Below, piece by piece: positions 6,680 to 59,035 of a stretch of 64,000 bases of DNA (within the stretch, counting starts at the first letter, position 1; each line of letters starts with the position of its first letter). The stretch is from an uncultured Lachnospiraceae bacterium. Its GTDB lineage: Bacteria > Bacillota > Clostridia > Lachnospirales > Lachnospiraceae. The stretch spans positions 1 to 64,000 of the forward strand of contig CANOEC010000002.1 of assembly GCA_947564735.1 (NCBI GenBank), read 5' to 3'. A program made the position numbers and the translations under genes. The notes beneath the pieces were generated by a model that saw only the letters and a list, made by a program, of their open reading frames with translations, did no database searches and was not told the origin of the DNA.

Positions 6680-7852
6680 TTATTGTTTAGATAGAAACTC
6701 TAAATTTTTCTGAATCAAATCACATCGTTGTGCTACACACTCTACGGAACGCAGCGGATCTTGCGGTGTATGGAATACATAATCAATCAGCTTGTCAATC
6801 GTTGTGGTCGCCACATGCATCCTCGTGTCGCTGGAAGCATAGTAAATATATACATCTCCGTTATCTCTTGCAATTGCACCGTTTGTAAATACCACATTGG
6901 ACACATCGCCGACACGTTCCCCTTCTCTTGGTCCGATCAGCATGCCGGAAGGCTCCGCAATCACTTTGGACGGATCGTTTAAATCGGTTGCAAACGCATA
7001 GATGACATAGCGCAGTCCTGCCGCCGTATTTCTGACGCCATGCGCAATATGAATCCAGCCCTTTTCCGTCTTGATGGGTGTTGCGCCCGCACCGTTCTTC
7101 GCCTCGGTAATGGTATGGTACTTCCGAAGGGAGGTCATCTTCTCCTCGTCTACTACAGCATGCGTGATATCGTCGCACAGTCCAAAGCCGATGCCGCCGC
7201 CGGAGCCTGTCTCGATGAAATCATCCATCGGTCTTGTATAGAAGGCGTACTTGCCGTTCACGAACTCAGGGTGGAGCACTACGTTCCTCTGCTGCGGGGA
7301 ACGAAGCGTTGTCAGATTGTCAAGTCTCTCCCAAGTCTTCAAATCTTTCGTTCTCACGATGCCAGCCGCCGCAACCGCCGCCGATAAGTCGTTTACTGTC
7401 TTGTCCTTGCTCTCCGAACAGAATACGCCGTAAATATAACCATCCTCATGCTTCGTTAAGCGCATGTCATACACATTTGTCTCCTCCGGACATGTGTCGG
7501 GCAGTAAAATCGGGTAATCCCAGAACTTAAATCCATCGATACCATTGTCGCTCTCTGCAACACCAAAGAAGGATTTTCTGTCATTTCCCTCGATACGTGC
7601 CACCAGATAAAATTTACCGTCAAGCTCAATCGCACCAGAATTCATGACTGCATTCACACCGAGCCGTTCCATGAAATAAGGATTTGTTTCCGGATTCAAA
7701 TCATATTTCCACGAAAGCGGAATATGTTCTCTGGTCAATACCGGGTATTCGTATCTGTCATAGATTCCGTTATATATCGCTGATTTTACATTCTTTCTGT
7801 TTACCAGCTTATTGTACTTCTCTAACTCTACATAATAATTACCGTGCAACAT
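6680..7852 (-). CDS. GH130_1 4-O-beta-mannosyl-glucose phosphorylase
   Basis: The 390-residue protein matches the longer GH130_1 subfamily (usually about 390 residues). Visible blocks are [57 protein letters not shown] with the conserved Asp, [24 protein letters not shown], and [20 protein letters not shown]. The known reaction is phosphorolysis of mannosyl-beta-1,4-glucose to mannose 1-phosphate and glucose (EC 2.4.1.281). Its start overlaps the end of the epimerase gene by 14 bases. The two enzymes are sequential, because the epimerase makes this enzyme's substrate. Confidence 0.9.
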
Positions 7853-26231: not shown

Positions 26232-26336
26232 TCTTCGCAATCTCCGACGGAAACTGCCCACCCATTCCGTTCCTTTCCCTAAATCTCTTTCTGCAAAAAA
26301 TGCAGGCAATTGAGAAAAGCAGAAGAAAATAGTCCC

Positions 26337-26499
26337 CTCAGTATCCAGCATTTTGCGGACATGGATGTCCGCAAAAGCCCGAAACGAGCCCGGATGGCTC
26401 ATTGAGGGCGGATGCGTCCGGCAATCAATATCTTACCGGAATATGTTAGAAAATCCAATCGACAAAGCAGACACAAGAGAGCAATTTGTGCAATCTGCC
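26337..26499 (-). repeat. Dispersed repeat copy B
   Basis: This is the second copy of the 163-base element at 31-193. The hairpin TTTGCGGACAT...ATGTCCGCAAA is perfect here, while copy A has one G-T pair. The stretch 26232-26581 otherwise contains no recognised gene. Confidence 0.75.
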
Positions 26500-52741: not shown

Positions 52742-54670
52742 CTACTGTAAAATCATATTCGTCTCAACAATCATCGCTTCCACATCCTTTGCAAGCTGCG
52801 CCAGTTCTTCCATTGAATTCTTGATACTGTTGCTGCTATCGGAAGTGGACTGAACGCCTTCGATTGCACCATCTGTCTCCGCAATCAGATTCTGTACCGT
52901 ATCGTCAAAATTATGTATAATCTGATTGACATTCTCAATCGCACTCTTCACTTCCCCGTCACTCTCCCTTGCATTTCCGACTGACGCCTTGGAGTTGTCA
53001 GAAAGTTCACGTATATTGGATGCCACAACCGCAAACCCTCGTCCTGCTTCGCCGGCTCTTGCCGCTTCTATTGCCGCATTCAGTGAAAGCAGATTAATCT
53101 TACCGGCAATCTTCTCCACATTCTGCGTCATATCATTATATTTTGAAACGCTCGTATTGATTGCCTGCATCGCCTGTGTGATTTCCTGATTCATCCTGTT
53201 CAGCTCTTCCATACGGACTGAGACACTTGACATTTCCTGTGTGCTCTTTCCACTCGCCGACTGTATCTGTTCGGCTTCTTTCTTGACAGCCTCAATATTT
53301 TCAGAAAGATTTCCGAATACGCGCATCAGCTCGTCGTTCATTGTCAGAACCTTCTCATTAACCTCGTTTACCTTCTGGCGCTCCTCCTTGATGGACTTCA
53401 TCATAAACTCATGGCAGTTCTCCGGCGTATTTAATCCGCGTGCAACTGCAACCGCCATCTCACGGCAGGAACGGTAGCCACAGGAATGACAGTCAAATGA
53501 CTTCTCATCCCGCGTATGTTTCCCCATGCTTGCATAAGCATTCTCAAGCTCTCTCTCCGTAACCTCTGTCTTATGAATATCATAGTGCTTATAGGTACGC
53601 ATATAATCATTTAGATTCAATGTCCTGTCAAATTCCGCAAACTGTTCGTCCACACCTTTTTTCGTCGTATGCTTCTTGCGTACTTTCCGTGCGTGCTGTT
53701 CTACGTCGTGCATGATATTGTTCATGGCAAAACGCTGGTAATGTACGCCCGTCGCCGGTCCGCCGTTACATCCGTCGCCGCAGTTTAGGACATCGAACAA
53801 ATCCGGCTTATCCTTCTCTTTCAAATCGGCATATGTCTCCATATCATGATACAGCGAGTCCGTCCCTTCGGACGTAATGACATTAAGCCCCGGCGCGTGT
53901 GTCAGAATATTGCTCATCAGCCCGCCCGGCTTCGGATAAATCGCTCCCTCCAAGCCCTGACTGCCGTCAAACTCAAATTCACTGTACACCTTCACTTCCG
54001 GCAGTCTGACATTATTATCTGAAAAATACTGCCGCAAATGCTCCATTGTCACATTATAATCCACAAGTCCCGTCTCGCGGAACTCTTCAATTTTGGCAAT
54101 GCAGGGAGAAATCGCCGCAATCTTACCTTTGTACCCCAGTACCTTCTTCATGTAAACCGCCAGACAGAGCATGGGGCTGTGTATCGGGGACAGGTTCTCA
54201 AACAACTCCGGTTTATGTCTCTGCACATAATTCACCACCGCAGCACAAGGCTGCGATATCAGCTTCTTGCCCGGATTTTTCTCAAGATAACGCAGATGCG
54301 CCCATGTACAGATGTCCGCACCGAAACTAACATCGTAAATCCTCTTAATACCGTGGTTGGACAACCATTGGAGCGCATGCCGCCAGTTCCCGTCGAAGGC
54401 TATCTTAATGGAAGGCGCCGCAATCAGCGCAATCTCCTGTCCTCTGTGCAAGTCTGCAAGAAATTGCTCCGTATCATCAACATATGTCCGCGCATCATGG
54501 GAACATGCTTTAATACACGCCCCACATTTGATGCATTTCTCATCGTCTATCAGAATCTTCAACCGTCCCTCTTCATCCATACGTGCTATATTGGCGTCTC
54601 CAACCGGACACGCGCGCACACAGGCGTTACATCCCACACATTTGCTAACGTCAACATCAATAATACTCAT
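52742..54670 (-). CDS. [FeFe]-hydrogenase-like chemoreceptor fusion
   Basis: The 642-residue soluble protein has four parts. Two 4Fe-4S ferredoxin clusters: Cys 11/14/17/21 and 46/49/52/56. A hydrogenase H-cluster-like domain (about 80-330): [10 protein letters not shown] (Cys142), SPCIAK (Cys190) and [13 protein letters not shown] (Cys297, Cys301). A further iron-sulfur motif: Cys 394/397/402/419. A methyl-accepting chemotaxis signalling domain (about 430-640) with the hairpin [30 protein letters not shown]. There is no membrane segment. The single Cys in the first motif fits sensory, not catalytic, hydrogenase groups. It could report hydrogen or redox state to a CheA-type kinase. GGAAG precedes the ATG. 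Confidence 0.88.
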
Positions 54671-54792
54671 ACATTCTTCCTTTCGCTGTAGTACAGTACA
54701 TTATCTTCAGCCAACAATCTCTCCGCAAGAAACGGAGTATTGACCCTCGCGGCATTCGCCAGATACCCGTGCAGACACAGTACTTGGCTCAT
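54667..54792 (-). CDS. Possible 41-residue upstream ORF, or structured leader
   Basis: A frame starting [20 protein letters not shown] ends in a TGA that overlaps the chemoreceptor's ATG (ATGA), as in coupled genes. But no ribosome binding site precedes it. The same bases form hairpins (CTCCG/CGGAG, GGC/GCC) enclosed by AGCCAA/TTGGCT. It may be a small protein, a structured 5' leader, or a copy of a dispersed conserved element. I cannot choose from one sequence. Confidence 0.4.
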
Positions 54793-54864: not shown

Positions 54865-54893
54865 ATTATAAAGGGTTCTGTCATTTCTGTCAA
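54865..54893 (-). promoter_or_regulatory. Sigma-A promoter of the chemoreceptor gene
   Basis: TTGACA (54888-54893) and TATAAT (54865-54870), minus strand, 17-base spacer: a consensus promoter giving a leader of about 190 bases. Confidence 0.85.
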
Positions 54894-54978: not shown

Positions 54979-55812
54979 TCAGAATCTGTCCGAAAAAGAT
55001 TTCTCTACCACAAAAATACAAACTGCAGCGCAAATAAGCAGCGCCGCACACGCAGGTATTGTAAAAAGTTTTTCCTGCACCACCGCACTCTGCGAAGCCG
55101 TATAAACTGTTATATTTGCTGACGCATGAAAAAGACACGGAATCAAAAAGCAGTGCATCCGCTCATACAAATATGCCATCAGAATCCCCATGCATCCGCC
55201 ATACAATCCCTGCACCAGATTGCCGTGATAGATACCGAACAGTACACCCGATACAATAACTGCAGCCATATGCGGAAAATAGCGTCTCATGCGGTTAAAA
55301 ACCAGACCACGGAACACAATCTCCTCCGTAATCGGAGAAATCAAGCCATACAAAACAACGCCTGCAAAAAAAGCAACGCCGTACTGCCGTTCCGCCACTT
55401 CCCGATAACCTGCAGACTTATCAACCATTTTGGTCAATGAAAGCAGAACATTCAGACCGAGGGCGGAGGAAACCGCCAGCAAAATGGTAAGCCCCGCCCT
55501 TCCGCTCATTGTTCTTCCACACATCCCTTTTTGCCCCTTCCAGCCATCCACAGTCTCTTTGTGTTCCGCAAGCTCCCCACGCAGCATGGGAAGAAGTGGC
55601 AGCACGCTGACAAGCATCGACAATCCACTGACCAGACCGGTCACTGTTTCCGTATGACCGGTCAGTGCAGTCAGGTATTCCTCCCCCAACGCTTCCGCTA
55701 TCGCCCGGCACAAAGACAACAGAAGAACAAACACCCCATTGAAAAGAATATAATATAGAAAGAGCGGTTTTAGAATTTGCCATATAGAATGAATTGTCTG
55801 CCTGCTCTTCAT
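54979..55812 (-). CDS. CPBP-family intramembrane metalloprotease
   Basis: The 277-residue membrane protein has about seven segments. It has the CPBP/Abi motifs EEIVFRG (motif 1, Glu-Glu and Arg), VLFGIYHGNLVQG (motif 2, His) and LIPCLFHASANI (motif 3, His). Members cleave or process membrane-bound proteins or peptides. Its ATG overlaps the BlaR1 gene's stop (ATGA), so it is the last cistron of the BlaI operon and may act with the BlaR1-type protease. Confidence 0.9.
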   Translation of the reverse strand: MKSRQTIHSIWQILKPLFLYYILFNGVFVLLLSLCRAIAEALGEEYLTALTGHTETVTGLVSGLSMLVSVLPLLPMLRGELAEHKETVDGWKGQKGMCGRTMSGRAGLTILLAVSSALGLNVLLSLTKMVDKSAGYREVAERQYGVAFFAGVVLYGLISPITEEIVFRGLVFNRMRRYFPHMAAVIVSGVLFGIYHGNLVQGLYGGCMGILMAYLYERMHCFLIPCLFHASANITVYTASQSAVVQEKLFTIPACAALLICAAVCIFVVEKSFSDRF

Positions 55813-58562
55813 GGTATCTCCTCCATAAGCGACCTCTCGTCCATACGCTCAAAACCAATCTGTCCTTCTTTTGCAACCGTAATCGTAACATTTCCTGTAC
55901 TGTACTTTTGTGCAAGTTCATTCAGTTTCTTAATGATATCGCTCTTCTCCATCCTAAGGAGCGCTTCGATATCGGTCTGCTCCCAGAAATCCTCTATGCC
56001 GTCTAACATGCCGCCGACCACACGGTCCCTTTCGCCCACCGTCACCTTCTCCTTGTCACTGACATGATAGCTGAATGAGTAATACATCTGGCACCATGTA
56101 AGCTGTGGCGCCCCGTCTTCCGGTGATTTCTCCAATGTGGCGCCTAAACTGGCATCTTCTGCTTCCGCTTCCGTTCCGCCTTTATATAAGCTTCTGACAA
56201 GCATTGCATTTTCGATGCCGGACAATCTCACCGTGCAGGTGACAAACTCCTTATCCTCCTTTGACAAGTTTACCCGGAAATCATTCCAAATCCTGTCGCA
56301 TTCAATCCGGTCATAACTGTCGCTATGCTCATTTGCCCAATCAAGCAGCAGGCTGTCGAACTCCGCCAATGACATCTTATCATAATCCGGCTTCTTCAGT
56401 GAAAGAATCCTGTCATAATCTTCACTTGTGCCGGGTAAAAATTCCCTGACTTCCTCACTGGTATCATGCCACCCGTCCGTCGATTGCCTGCGTCTTACAT
56501 TCCACTCCTCCTGCTCTTCTTTCGTTGCGGTACGAAGCCCGGTCAGTTTTCCCTGCCCGTCATAGACCGCATACACTTCTATGGCGTCCTGTGCATATGT
56601 GGAGATTCCGGCATGCGCCGCAATCATGATGCCTTGTTTTTCATCAAGGATTCCTCTCACTTCCTTCCCCTCAAAATACATTTTGAAGTCATCCGCCTGC
56701 GCATCATATTCATAAGTCAGACCGAATGGCGTGTACGGATTTAATACCGTCTCCAAATCTGCCTCACACTCTCTCTGGATTTCATCCCGTAATGCCTGCT
56801 CCTCTGCTTGAAGCGCCGCCTCCCATTCTTCCGTACTCTGATAATATCCCTCTGCCTCACCGCCATCCGGATAGAAACTGTTCGGCTGGTAAACCCATTC
56901 CACATCAACATAAAGTCCCTCTGTGCTAAGTTCCTTTGTCAATGTATGCACCAGACGCTCTATCTCGGTCTGCATCAATTCCGCGTCAGCCAGTTCCTGC
57001 GCAGGATAATCCAGCAGCATATTTGAAATCATGTCCGCCGCCGCAAGACGAACATCCACATATTCACCAACCGTCACTGCATCGGCATCCAGTATGTTCA
57101 TCGTAATGCTGTATTCCAACACTGCCATATCTGCCGTAACATTCTCAGGCGGAACCAATCCGGATACCGATACGGCGCCATCAAATTGACGTTCCTGCCA
57201 CCGCTGCGCGACCAGCGGACCCAGCACATAGAACAGGTAATGTGACGTATCGTCGGTCTCACACATGTTGTACAGTGCTTCATCATTTTCCATCCGGTCA
57301 AACAAATCAATGTATTCGCTTGATTCATCAAGCACTCTGTTTGCCCTGTCCCGAAACGCCGATACGGTCATACTCTCATACCCGTCAAAACGAAGCCTGT
57401 CTAACAACTCCTTTTCTTCCTGCGTATACGCCCCTGTCTCTTCCCCTTTTCCTGCCGAAGTGGCAAACGCTGTCGTCACACCCACTACCAGACCGGCGGC
57501 AAAAAGAACCGCTGCCAGCGAAATTTTCTTCATCTTCATGATTGCACGCACTCTCCCTTCTATCGCATTCTGACTGAAATTGTTGCACAGCGATACAAAT
57601 CCGCTCCTCTTTACCTCCATGGCAATCAGCATGTTTGCATATGCCGCCTTATCGTTGACACCGCATCTGTGCACCACGCTCTCGTCACAGGCAAGCTCAA
57701 TATCCCGATTCATCAGAATATACAACACCCACACAAGGGGATTAAACCAGTGTAGGCAAAGCGCCGCGGCAACAGCTATCTTCCATATGCCGTCCCCATA
57801 ACAGATATGCGTGTACTCATGCCACAACACATACTTAAGCTGCTCCGTATTTTCCCATTCTGTTTTCTTCGGCAACAGGATAACCGGACGAATGACTCTA
57901 TAAGTCAACGGTGTATCAATCCTATCAGAAACTCTCACGCGCACGGTTCTATGTCGTTCCTTTAGCCATCGCTCCACATAGTCATTAGAAACCGGCAGCG
58001 ACATGCCAAACTCAAAGCGGCACCTTACATAAGCCACAAGGAAGTAAACCATGCACAATACAGCCCCGGTTCCATAGATTATGAGCCAGACAGAGTCCTT
58101 TGCAGTCCCGACCAAGCTGGTCATTTGTGCCGCATCCTTACCCTTGTCTAAACCGCTGACAAATGCCCCTTGGACGCCGTCCGACACTGTTTCTTCTGCT
58201 CCTGACACTACTTTTCCTGTCTCTGACACATCTGTCGGTAATTCATTTCCATCGGTATACGGTAACTCTGACGACTGTCTTAACCGGTCATCATGCCCCG
58301 CTCCTGTTTCCATACTCCTTACCGCAGCATCCGCCGTTCCCCACGTCATCCGGCTCTCTATCATATCCGCCATATCGTGCCCAGCCAACGAATAAACGCT
58401 GAAATCGGAAGAAATCTCAATCGGAACAAGCAATCTGACCAAAACAGCGCACCACAGTATGACAAACGTCCGCTTAGGAAGCCAATTGACCGTAACGGTC
58501 CGTATCAATAATGCTGCCAGTACCATGACAGCTCCGTATAAACTCATTTCCAGTAAGTTCAC
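55809..58562 (-). CDS. BlaR1-like M56 metallopeptidase sensor
   Basis: The 917-residue protein has four membrane segments in its N-terminal 430 residues. The M56 zinc site is HEYTH (about 248-252) in VLWHEYTHICYGDGIWKIA, with DIELACDESVV following. A fourth membrane helix (ISLAAVLFAAGLVVGVTTAF) leads to about 500 extracellular residues. That region is not a penicillin-binding domain: no SxxK-type motif was noticed. So it senses something other than beta-lactams in the classical way. GTG 58562 is chosen since GAGGTG lies six bases upstream, overlapping the BlaI stop. Confidence 0.85.
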   Translation of the reverse strand: MNLLEMSLYGAVMVLAALLIRTVTVNWLPKRTFVILWCAVLVRLLVPIEISSDFSVYSLAGHDMADMIESRMTWGTADAAVRSMETGAGHDDRLRQSSELPYTDGNELPTDVSETGKVVSGAEETVSDGVQGAFVSGLDKGKDAAQMTSLVGTAKDSVWLIIYGTGAVLCMVYFLVAYVRCRFEFGMSLPVSNDYVERWLKERHRTVRVRVSDRIDTPLTYRVIRPVILLPKKTEWENTEQLKYVLWHEYTHICYGDGIWKIAVAAALCLHWFNPLVWVLYILMNRDIELACDESVVHRCGVNDKAAYANMLIAMEVKRSGFVSLCNNFSQNAIEGRVRAIMKMKKISLAAVLFAAGLVVGVTTAFATSAGKGEETGAYTQEEKELLDRLRFDGYESMTVSAFRDRANRVLDESSEYIDLFDRMENDEALYNMCETDDTSHYLFYVLGPLVAQRWQERQFDGAVSVSGLVPPENVTADMAVLEYSITMNILDADAVTVGEYVDVRLAAADMISNMLLDYPAQELADAELMQTEIERLVHTLTKELSTEGLYVDVEWVYQPNSFYPDGGEAEGYYQSTEEWEAALQAEEQALRDEIQRECEADLETVLNPYTPFGLTYEYDAQADDFKMYFEGKEVRGILDEKQGIMIAAHAGISTYAQDAIEVYAVYDGQGKLTGLRTATKEEQEEWNVRRRQSTDGWHDTSEEVREFLPGTSEDYDRILSLKKPDYDKMSLAEFDSLLLDWANEHSDSYDRIECDRIWNDFRVNLSKEDKEFVTCTVRLSGIENAMLVRSLYKGGTEAEAEDASLGATLEKSPEDGAPQLTWCQMYYSFSYHVSDKEKVTVGERDRVVGGMLDGIEDFWEQTDIEALLRMEKSDIIKKLNELAQKYSTGNVTITVAKEGQIGFERMDERSLMEEIP

Positions 58563-58572
58563 GCTTATCACC

Positions 58573-58941
58573 TCATTCCAATTCCCCGACAATCTGCTTC
58601 AGCTTCTCAATCTGTTCGGCTGTTAACTTCTTTCTGCCAAGCAGCGACGCAAACAGCTTATCTGCAGAGCCGTCGTAAATCTTGTTGATTAATTCCGTCG
58701 TCTCTGCCTCCTGCACGGCTTCCTTCGCTATCAGCGCATGACACATGAAATTCGGCTCCGAGCGCTCAATGGCTCCCTTTTTGATACAGCGCTTAATTAA
58801 CGTATACGTTGTATTCTTATTCCAGCCCAGTTCCTTCGTCAGCACATCCGCGATATGTTTTGCCGGTACATCTCCCTCATTCCAGAGAATCCCCATGACT
58901 TTTAATTCGGAATCAAATAATTTTGTCGTCTCCTGTTCCAT
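58573..58941 (-). CDS. BlaI/MecI-family repressor
   Basis: The 122-residue protein has a winged helix (LFDSELKVMGILWNEGDVPAKHIADVLTKELGWNKNTTYTLIKRCIKKGAIER) and a C-terminal dimerisation helix. In this family the partner BlaR1 protease causes cleavage of the repressor at Asn-Phe; here a site could lie in EPNFMCH. AAGGAACACGG precedes the ATG at 58941. A large operator palindrome (58972-59028) covers its promoter, so it very likely represses its own operon. Confidence 0.92.
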   Translation of the reverse strand: MEQETTKLFDSELKVMGILWNEGDVPAKHIADVLTKELGWNKNTTYTLIKRCIKKGAIERSEPNFMCHALIAKEAVQEAETTELINKIYDGSADKLFASLLGRKKLTAEQIEKLKQIVGELE

Positions 58942-58971
58942 TCCGTGTTCCTTCCTTTCCCTCTTCAAAAG

Positions 58972-59035
58972 CATGATAAGACTGTAGTAGTCTGCTTGTT
59001 AATTACAGACTACTACAGTCTTATCATGTTGTCAA
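58972..59035 (-). promoter_or_regulatory. BlaI-type operator and promoter
   Basis: Perfect 23-base inverted arms (58972-58994 and 59006-59028) flank an 11-base spacer. Each arm holds AGACT-N5-AGTCT with the core CTGTAGTAG. A TTGACA (-35) lies at 59030-59035, so repressor binding would cover the promoter. Confidence 0.8.

Follow-up and report, generated by a model that had tools for sequence, protein, structure and literature searches.

The question raised by this locus is what a hydrogenase-type domain may sense when it is joined to a chemotaxis signalling domain in one protein. The gene lies in the window, that is, the whole stretch of 64,000 nucleotides analysed in the present study. The coordinates, strand and length of the 642-residue frame, and the positions of cysteines 142, 190, 297 and 301, had been given exactly by the first-pass annotation (Table 1). 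Ferredoxin clusters, an H-cluster-like domain, an extra iron-sulfur motif and an MCP signalling domain had also been proposed, and each of them was recovered by Pfam as a Fer4 pair (residues about 6-61), Fe_hyd_lg_C (81-305, E 2.2e-28), FeS PF04060 (393-419, E 1.8e-6) and MCPsignal (495-633, E 7.8e-23), while no HAMP match was found by Pfam in the 642-aa protein. The maximum 19-residue Kyte-Doolittle mean is 1.02; therefore, the receptor has no membrane segment, as had been claimed. The predicted fold of the H-domain matches hydrogenases, with the four cubane cysteines kept, and the structure search gave hydrogenases only among the matches listed. Of the putative ligand cysteines, all 16, with the eight of the ferredoxin motifs (C11, 14, 17, 21, 46, 49, 52 and 56) among them, are invariant across an alignment of 28 rows (26 window-type rows and two upstream paralogues). 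Among the window protein and 68 relatives, the length is 642-646 aa in 67 of 69 rows, and contig ends truncate the remaining two. Since the lengths are uniform and the 16 putative ligand cysteines are invariant in relatives, the architecture is not a product of chance.

The signalling coiled coil begins directly past C419. In the AlphaFold2 full-length model, residues 420-641 form one helix with pLDDT of about 63-66 along the middle; the MCP hairpin, which the model did not resolve, would follow from homology. In the segment that we take to be the CheA/CheW-contact tip, 19/21 positions are invariant or nearly so in the 28-row alignment. The strict form of the canonical methylation site, scanned with a consensus that we assume to be the appropriate one, was absent in 7/7 window-type proteins checked, the window's included, and gave one match each in L088 and L090.

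Table 1. Positions of the receptor gene, its parts and its promoter in the window
Feature	Position	Strand	Basis
Whole gene, soluble hydrogenase-type chemoreceptor, 642 aa	52742..54670	-	ORF and Pfam
Two N-terminal [4Fe-4S] ferredoxin motifs, residues 1-62	54485..54670	-	Pfam, cysteines
H-domain, residues 81-305; C142, C190, C297, C301, K193	53756..54430	-	Pfam, fold, invariant columns
C-terminal iron-sulfur motif C394-x2-C397-x4-C402-x16-C419	53414..53491	-	PF04060, cysteine spacing
MCP signalling coiled coil, residues 420-642	52745..53413	-	Pfam, AlphaFold2 model
Presumed CheA/CheW-contact tip, residues 526-546 (21 residues)	53033..53095	-	Conservation
Promoter of the sigma-A type, TTGACA-N17-TATAAT, 5' of the gene	54865..54893	-	Sequence, conservation

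A scan of contigs kept 79 loci, namely 73 of the window type (L003-L075, a few partial) and six that are group-B-like. The record titles at the scanned loci are mostly Lachnospiraceae, and the others are Clostridia-type groups or simply 'bacterium'. A member of the wider clade (E < 1e-50) was found in 21/100 genomes of the window's own family. The carrier genomes examined number 51, namely the own genome and those of 50 of the 73 loci.

Next to the hydrogenase-type domain, the annotation had suggested a tie of the receptor to motility or another CheA-like pathway and had advised a look for cheA and cheW in the genome. Both are present: one gene run of the own genome holds CheA (708 aa), CheW, CheB, CheC, CheD, FlhA and FlhB, together with an SRP54-domain protein (FlhF-like) and a sigma factor. 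The protein thus has the features of a cytoplasmic chemoreceptor, with an MCP signalling domain, no membrane segment, and CheA and CheW in its genome. CheA was found in 50 of the 51 window-type carriers and is missing in G123. In 29 further genomes, which were chosen by us and in which MCP identity was judged by Pfam or sequence, CheA is present in 16/16 carriers of MCP fusions vs 7/13 others (Fisher p 0.0036, a test that takes no account of kinship). All three maturases of the H-cluster (HydE, HydF and HydG, together HydEFG) are present in 6/16 vs 8/13 of the same genomes; therefore, the receptor goes with CheA and not with HydEFG. Genome content favours the chemotaxis link, which is well supported.

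The sigma-A type promoter stands at the same place in 10/13 aligned upstream regions. We also considered a sigma-D (motility) promoter and rejected it, because the best scores upstream of 65 genes are near those of block-shuffled sequence (consensus scores of 10 were seen for nine genes vs 5.3 expected, and the window's own best is 10); therefore, that consensus gives no sign of motility control. Between the sigma-A type promoter and the gene lies a leader of about 98 nt (window 54685-54785), which is found only in the window among the 13 upstream regions; a 96-nt part of this leader occurs once in the genome. A leader RNA at this place was rejected, as Rfam gave no match at gathering score and one at chance level. 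Two matches to the TwoAYGGAY cis-regulatory RNA were recorded elsewhere in the window, at 1-164 and 26312-26470 (95.3 and 72.2 bits). The downstream MBL-fold gene was rejected as a conserved operon partner, since in 71 loci (L003-L073, several with short flanks) it is near the sensor only in L003, where it is 2.4 kb off, and in L004, L005 and L024. At 55809-58974, the window holds a BlaR1/BlaI-like pair, in which a penicillinase-repressor family protein stands beside a long ORF that we take to be membrane metallopeptidase-like.

The reduced first motif had been said to fit the sensory groups of hydrogenases, and the comparison bears this out. The receptor falls short of the cut-offs of TIGR02512 and TIGR04105 for the catalytic groups A and B1 (96.3 vs 405.95 bits and 135.8 vs 450 bits). 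Its L1 motif is SQPC in place of TSCCP, with proline at the position of the proton-relay C299 (SQP141C142), and the positions of M353 and M497 are Ser188 and Leu295. For CpI positions other than those given in PMC8163306, the correspondence with the receptor is our own assumption. The putative sensory hydrogenase TamHydS is described with loss of C299 and with M353 to Ser and M497 to Leu, and it is active without the proton-relay cysteine (PMC8163306). The same source describes the C-terminal Cx2Cx4Cx16C motif for M2e and M2f enzymes, and the receptor shares with these classes (groups D and C) this motif, the N-terminal two-cluster domain and the C299 loss. A PAS domain, the further feature of group C / M2f, gave no Pfam match in the receptor up to E 0.1. 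The PAS-type hydrogenase-like proteins L110-L113 (PAS checked by Pfam in L110 only) keep a CC pair at L1, although loss of C299 is given as a trait of the M2f subclass (PMC8163306).

In an H-domain tree of 52 rows, the group names are our own and follow architecture and motifs. A single clade at 100/100 takes up 34 of these rows, namely the window family, its relatives with MCP, kinase or EAL domains, and its short relatives; rows of the PAS and D-like types and those of groups A and B lie outside it. This clade is sister to the PAS and D-like rows at 87/73, which is not firm support, in a tree that was built without TmHydS and TamHydS. The short relatives have a 452-aa frame with no effector seen. 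By Pfam, the effectors in ten relatives are MCP, histidine kinase, hybrid kinase with receiver or Hpt, and GGDEF-EAL, and PAS is found in one row of the group C type. The GGDEF and EAL fusion (L127:1223-3850) is an output absent from the group C subtypes listed in the available text of HydDB (PMC5037454). A second hydrogenase-type relative, 35-37% identical, stands directly upstream of the window-type receptor in L028, L030, L034 and L069, and the upstream copy in L028 is an MCP fusion by Pfam.

For hydrogen sensing, the maturases are the critical point. The own genome measures 4.52 Mb in 102 contigs, with 99.49% completeness and 2.59% contamination. No match to HydG or HydE was found in it, and the search for HydF gave only GTPase-family matches far below the cut-off (20/34 first-look candidates scored). 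The HydG of the near relative G101, used as query, had no match at E 0.01 in the own genome; it gave 58-100% identity in G101 itself and in five other HydG genomes, and only distant matches in G011, G083 and G110, which have HydF and no HydG. Therefore, the diiron half of the H-cluster is without a known maker in this organism. It would be very unlikely that HydEFG is present in the organism and was lost from the assembly. Gaps exist between 102 contigs, and the three genes adjoin in several relatives, so one gap could remove all of them; against this stand the completeness of the genome, the same absence in 3/4 of the nearest GltX relatives (G100, G102 and G121, 93-95% identical) and in G060, which is of the same genus and 100% complete, and the fact that CheA was missed in only 1/51 carriers.

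The absence is also shared more widely. All three maturases were found in 28 of the 51 carriers, HydF and HydG in two, HydF only (above the cut-off) in one and none in 20, so that HydF is present in 31/51 and 19 of the 50 carriers besides the own genome are without HydEFG. Among the 20 are G142, which by its identical match places seems to be one genome with G064, itself only 61% complete, and Lachnospiraceae bacterium A4, which, in contrast to most, has no MAG label in its record title. It was already noted in 2011 that a few species have [FeFe] hydrogenase genes without maturases (PMC3226654). The HydEFG state changes 10 times on the sensor tree (seven forced by starred branches; outgroup L084 from the HydEFG-less genome G016 left out) and five times on the GltX tree; therefore, the absence is patchy and may in some cases be recent. 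Gain and loss were not told apart by the HydG tree either.

If the loss were recent, a former H2 sensor would now be blind to H2 and retained for whatever residual or ligand-independent action it has on CheA. Besides the patchy distribution, this would agree with G101, which has HydEFG, and its sister G121, which has not (GltX pS 0.177, sensor pS 0.184), and with L063, a HydEFG-less locus in which residues of L1 and neighbouring pocket motifs are changed. We consider it improbable, because the HydEFG-less G100, G102 and G121 are at sensor pS 0.63-0.68 from G000 with pocket motifs intact, and a branch of seven genomes is HydEFG-less throughout. On this branch (one in the GltX tree, 100/100), the H-domain ratio is 0.070 and the pocket is invariant at 24/24 positions. 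In 12 HydEFG-less sequences of the window clade, the H-domain has pN 0.056, pS 0.734 and a ratio of 0.076, the lowest of five regions (0.145 for the MCP part), and 23 of 24 pocket positions, which we chose on the presumed likeness to hydrogenase structure, are invariant. The H-domain is thus under purifying selection without maturases. The ratio is 0.070 in four HydEFG-plus sequences, and no difference in the pocket follows the HydEFG state between HydEFG-plus and HydEFG-minus carriers. Horizontal transfer was rejected as the cause of this conservation: the synonymous divergence of sensor and GltX, near saturation in many pairs, agrees within 0.1 in 14/15 pairs, as for vertical inheritance (for G000-G100, pS is 0.631 for the sensor and 0.614 for GltX), and the exception is G105-G106 (0.067 vs 0.198).

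Other hydrogenases persist in the same HydEFG-less genomes. Among 30 group A loci read, nine are from such genomes (L133, L134, L137, L142, L143, L149, L153, L155 and L156). The L2 and L3 cysteine patterns are kept in 9/9 of these and the L1 pattern matched in 7/9, a pattern that also missed several HydEFG-plus rows. In the own genome, a group B-type gene (contig C59, L130:6208-7773) stands immediately upstream of gltX (at 7775). This gene keeps TSCCPSW, GPCASK and GMACPGGC and, with pN 0.027 and pS 0.669 in four HydEFG-less near relatives (own included), is under stronger purifying selection than the sensor H-domain. These hydrogenases either have a diiron-free function or receive a diiron site by a route yet unrecognised.

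Our preferred reading, with a probability of about 0.48, is that the receptor works as an iron-sulfur redox sensor coupled to CheA and that its H-site is without the diiron half in this organism. As to cluster occupancy, signal and coupling to CheA, we infer a soluble cytoplasmic chemoreceptor in which the input module would be a chain of iron-sulfur sites derived from an [FeFe]-hydrogenase, ordered as two ferredoxin clusters, the H-site and the C-terminal cluster, with the last cysteine at the start of the signalling helix. The H-site would hold only the [4Fe-4S] half. The signal would be the intracellular redox state and not H2, and may come from the ferredoxin pool or from oxygen damage, and the output would go to the CheA-CheW kinase that serves flagellar chemotaxis. 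The reading is given only about even odds because of the hydrogenases that persist without HydEFG. The occurrence of HydF in 31/51 carriers and of the full maturase set in 28/51 also speaks against it, as do K193, S87 and the GG loop, which presumably line the diiron site in hydrogenases and which, being kept, fit a full H-cluster at least as well. The coiled coil with no canonical methylation site and the repeated changes of HydEFG state on the trees count against the reading as well.

A true H2-sensing chemoreceptor, in which a complete H-cluster is made by an unrecognised maturation and H2 binding alters the activity of CheA, is possible, and we regard it as the less probable but serious alternative. 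The four cubane cysteines, a lysine that we take to be the equivalent of K358 and the TamHydS-type Ser/Leu replacements are all kept. HydF is found in those 31 carriers; genomes without HydEFG retain catalytic-type hydrogenases, with strong selection on the group B gene; and the role is the one that HydDB proposed for group C2 (PMC5037454). An unrecognised maturation route would explain the persistence of groups A and B and the kept residues all at once. On the other side, the searches of the own genome gave no HydE, HydF or HydG, and the literature search, in the portions of the sources available, turned up no alternative route to the diiron site. The proline at the proton-relay cysteine also argues against it, a weak point since TamHydS is active without that cysteine too (PMC8163306). 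For TamHydS, H2 is reported not to reduce the C-terminal cluster, and a change of secondary structure is reported (PMC13104023). TamHydS has also been loaded with a synthetic diiron precursor. The sequence evidence does not decide firmly whether the receptor senses redox state, or H2 with a cluster matured by an unrecognised route. Thus, of the hydrogen or redox sensing first proposed for the protein, the hydrogen link loses support in this organism through the absence of maturases from a near-complete genome, and redox sensing fits better.

We tentatively extend the redox reading, at slightly less than even odds, to a Lachnospiraceae clade of hydrogenase-derived receptors that would work without the diiron site, as a maturase-free iron-sulfur sensor with chemotaxis, histidine-kinase and c-di-GMP outputs. 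If this is true, the catalytic-type hydrogenases in the same genomes would be a second such case, or a sign of unrecognised H-cluster assembly. The close relatives G101 and G121, with and without maturases and with nearly the same receptor, make the question testable, and their comparison would tell the H2 from the redox reading by hydrogenase-like sensors. Furthermore, counts of hydrogenase genes in gut metagenomes may include proteins without a known way to the H-cluster.

Finally, the receptor may be compared with known systems. A possible analogy is offered by Nar1/IOP1-type hydrogenase-like iron-sulfur proteins, which carry the cubane and are not known to hold a diiron site. Soluble (cytoplasmic) methyl-accepting chemotaxis proteins share the MCP signalling domain, the conserved tip and the lack of a membrane segment, and the receptor differs from them by its hydrogenase-type input and by a canonical methylation site that was not found. 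TmHydS (group C / M2f) has the same order of ferredoxin, H-domain, C-terminal cluster and signalling domain, but with PAS for MCP and with M353 to Gly and M497 to Ser (PMC8163306), and the PAS-type rows from genomes of the same family fall outside the window clade. TamHydS of Thermoanaerobacter mathranii (group D / M2e) is alike in its two N-terminal clusters, the Cx2Cx4Cx16C motif, the C299 loss and the Ser/Leu replacements, but it has no PAS domain, and no fused effector is described for it in the available text of PMC8163306; the D-like rows, unlike the receptor, also lie outside the window clade. The closest kind in print is HydDB group C2, entered in its Table 1 as 'Chemotactic (putative)' with undetermined role, which may sense H2 and regulate through MCPs (PMC5037454), so that H2 sensing through MCPs is an idea already published there. 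A 2022 survey of acetogens discarded C2 matches in validation and repeated the HydDB wording (PMC9431212), and our literature searches turned up no experimental work on a hydrogenase linked to an MCP. The receptor is therefore a member of a catalogued kind, experimentally unexplored as far as we found. Linkage to a methyl-accepting chemotaxis protein, as expected of C2, is provided by the fused MCPsignal domain, and the assignment rests on architecture and our own tree. H2 sensing is proposed for C2, whereas no maturases were found in the genome of the receptor; the two are alike as H-domain proteins linked to an MCP, with a proposed action through MCPs (PMC5037454).
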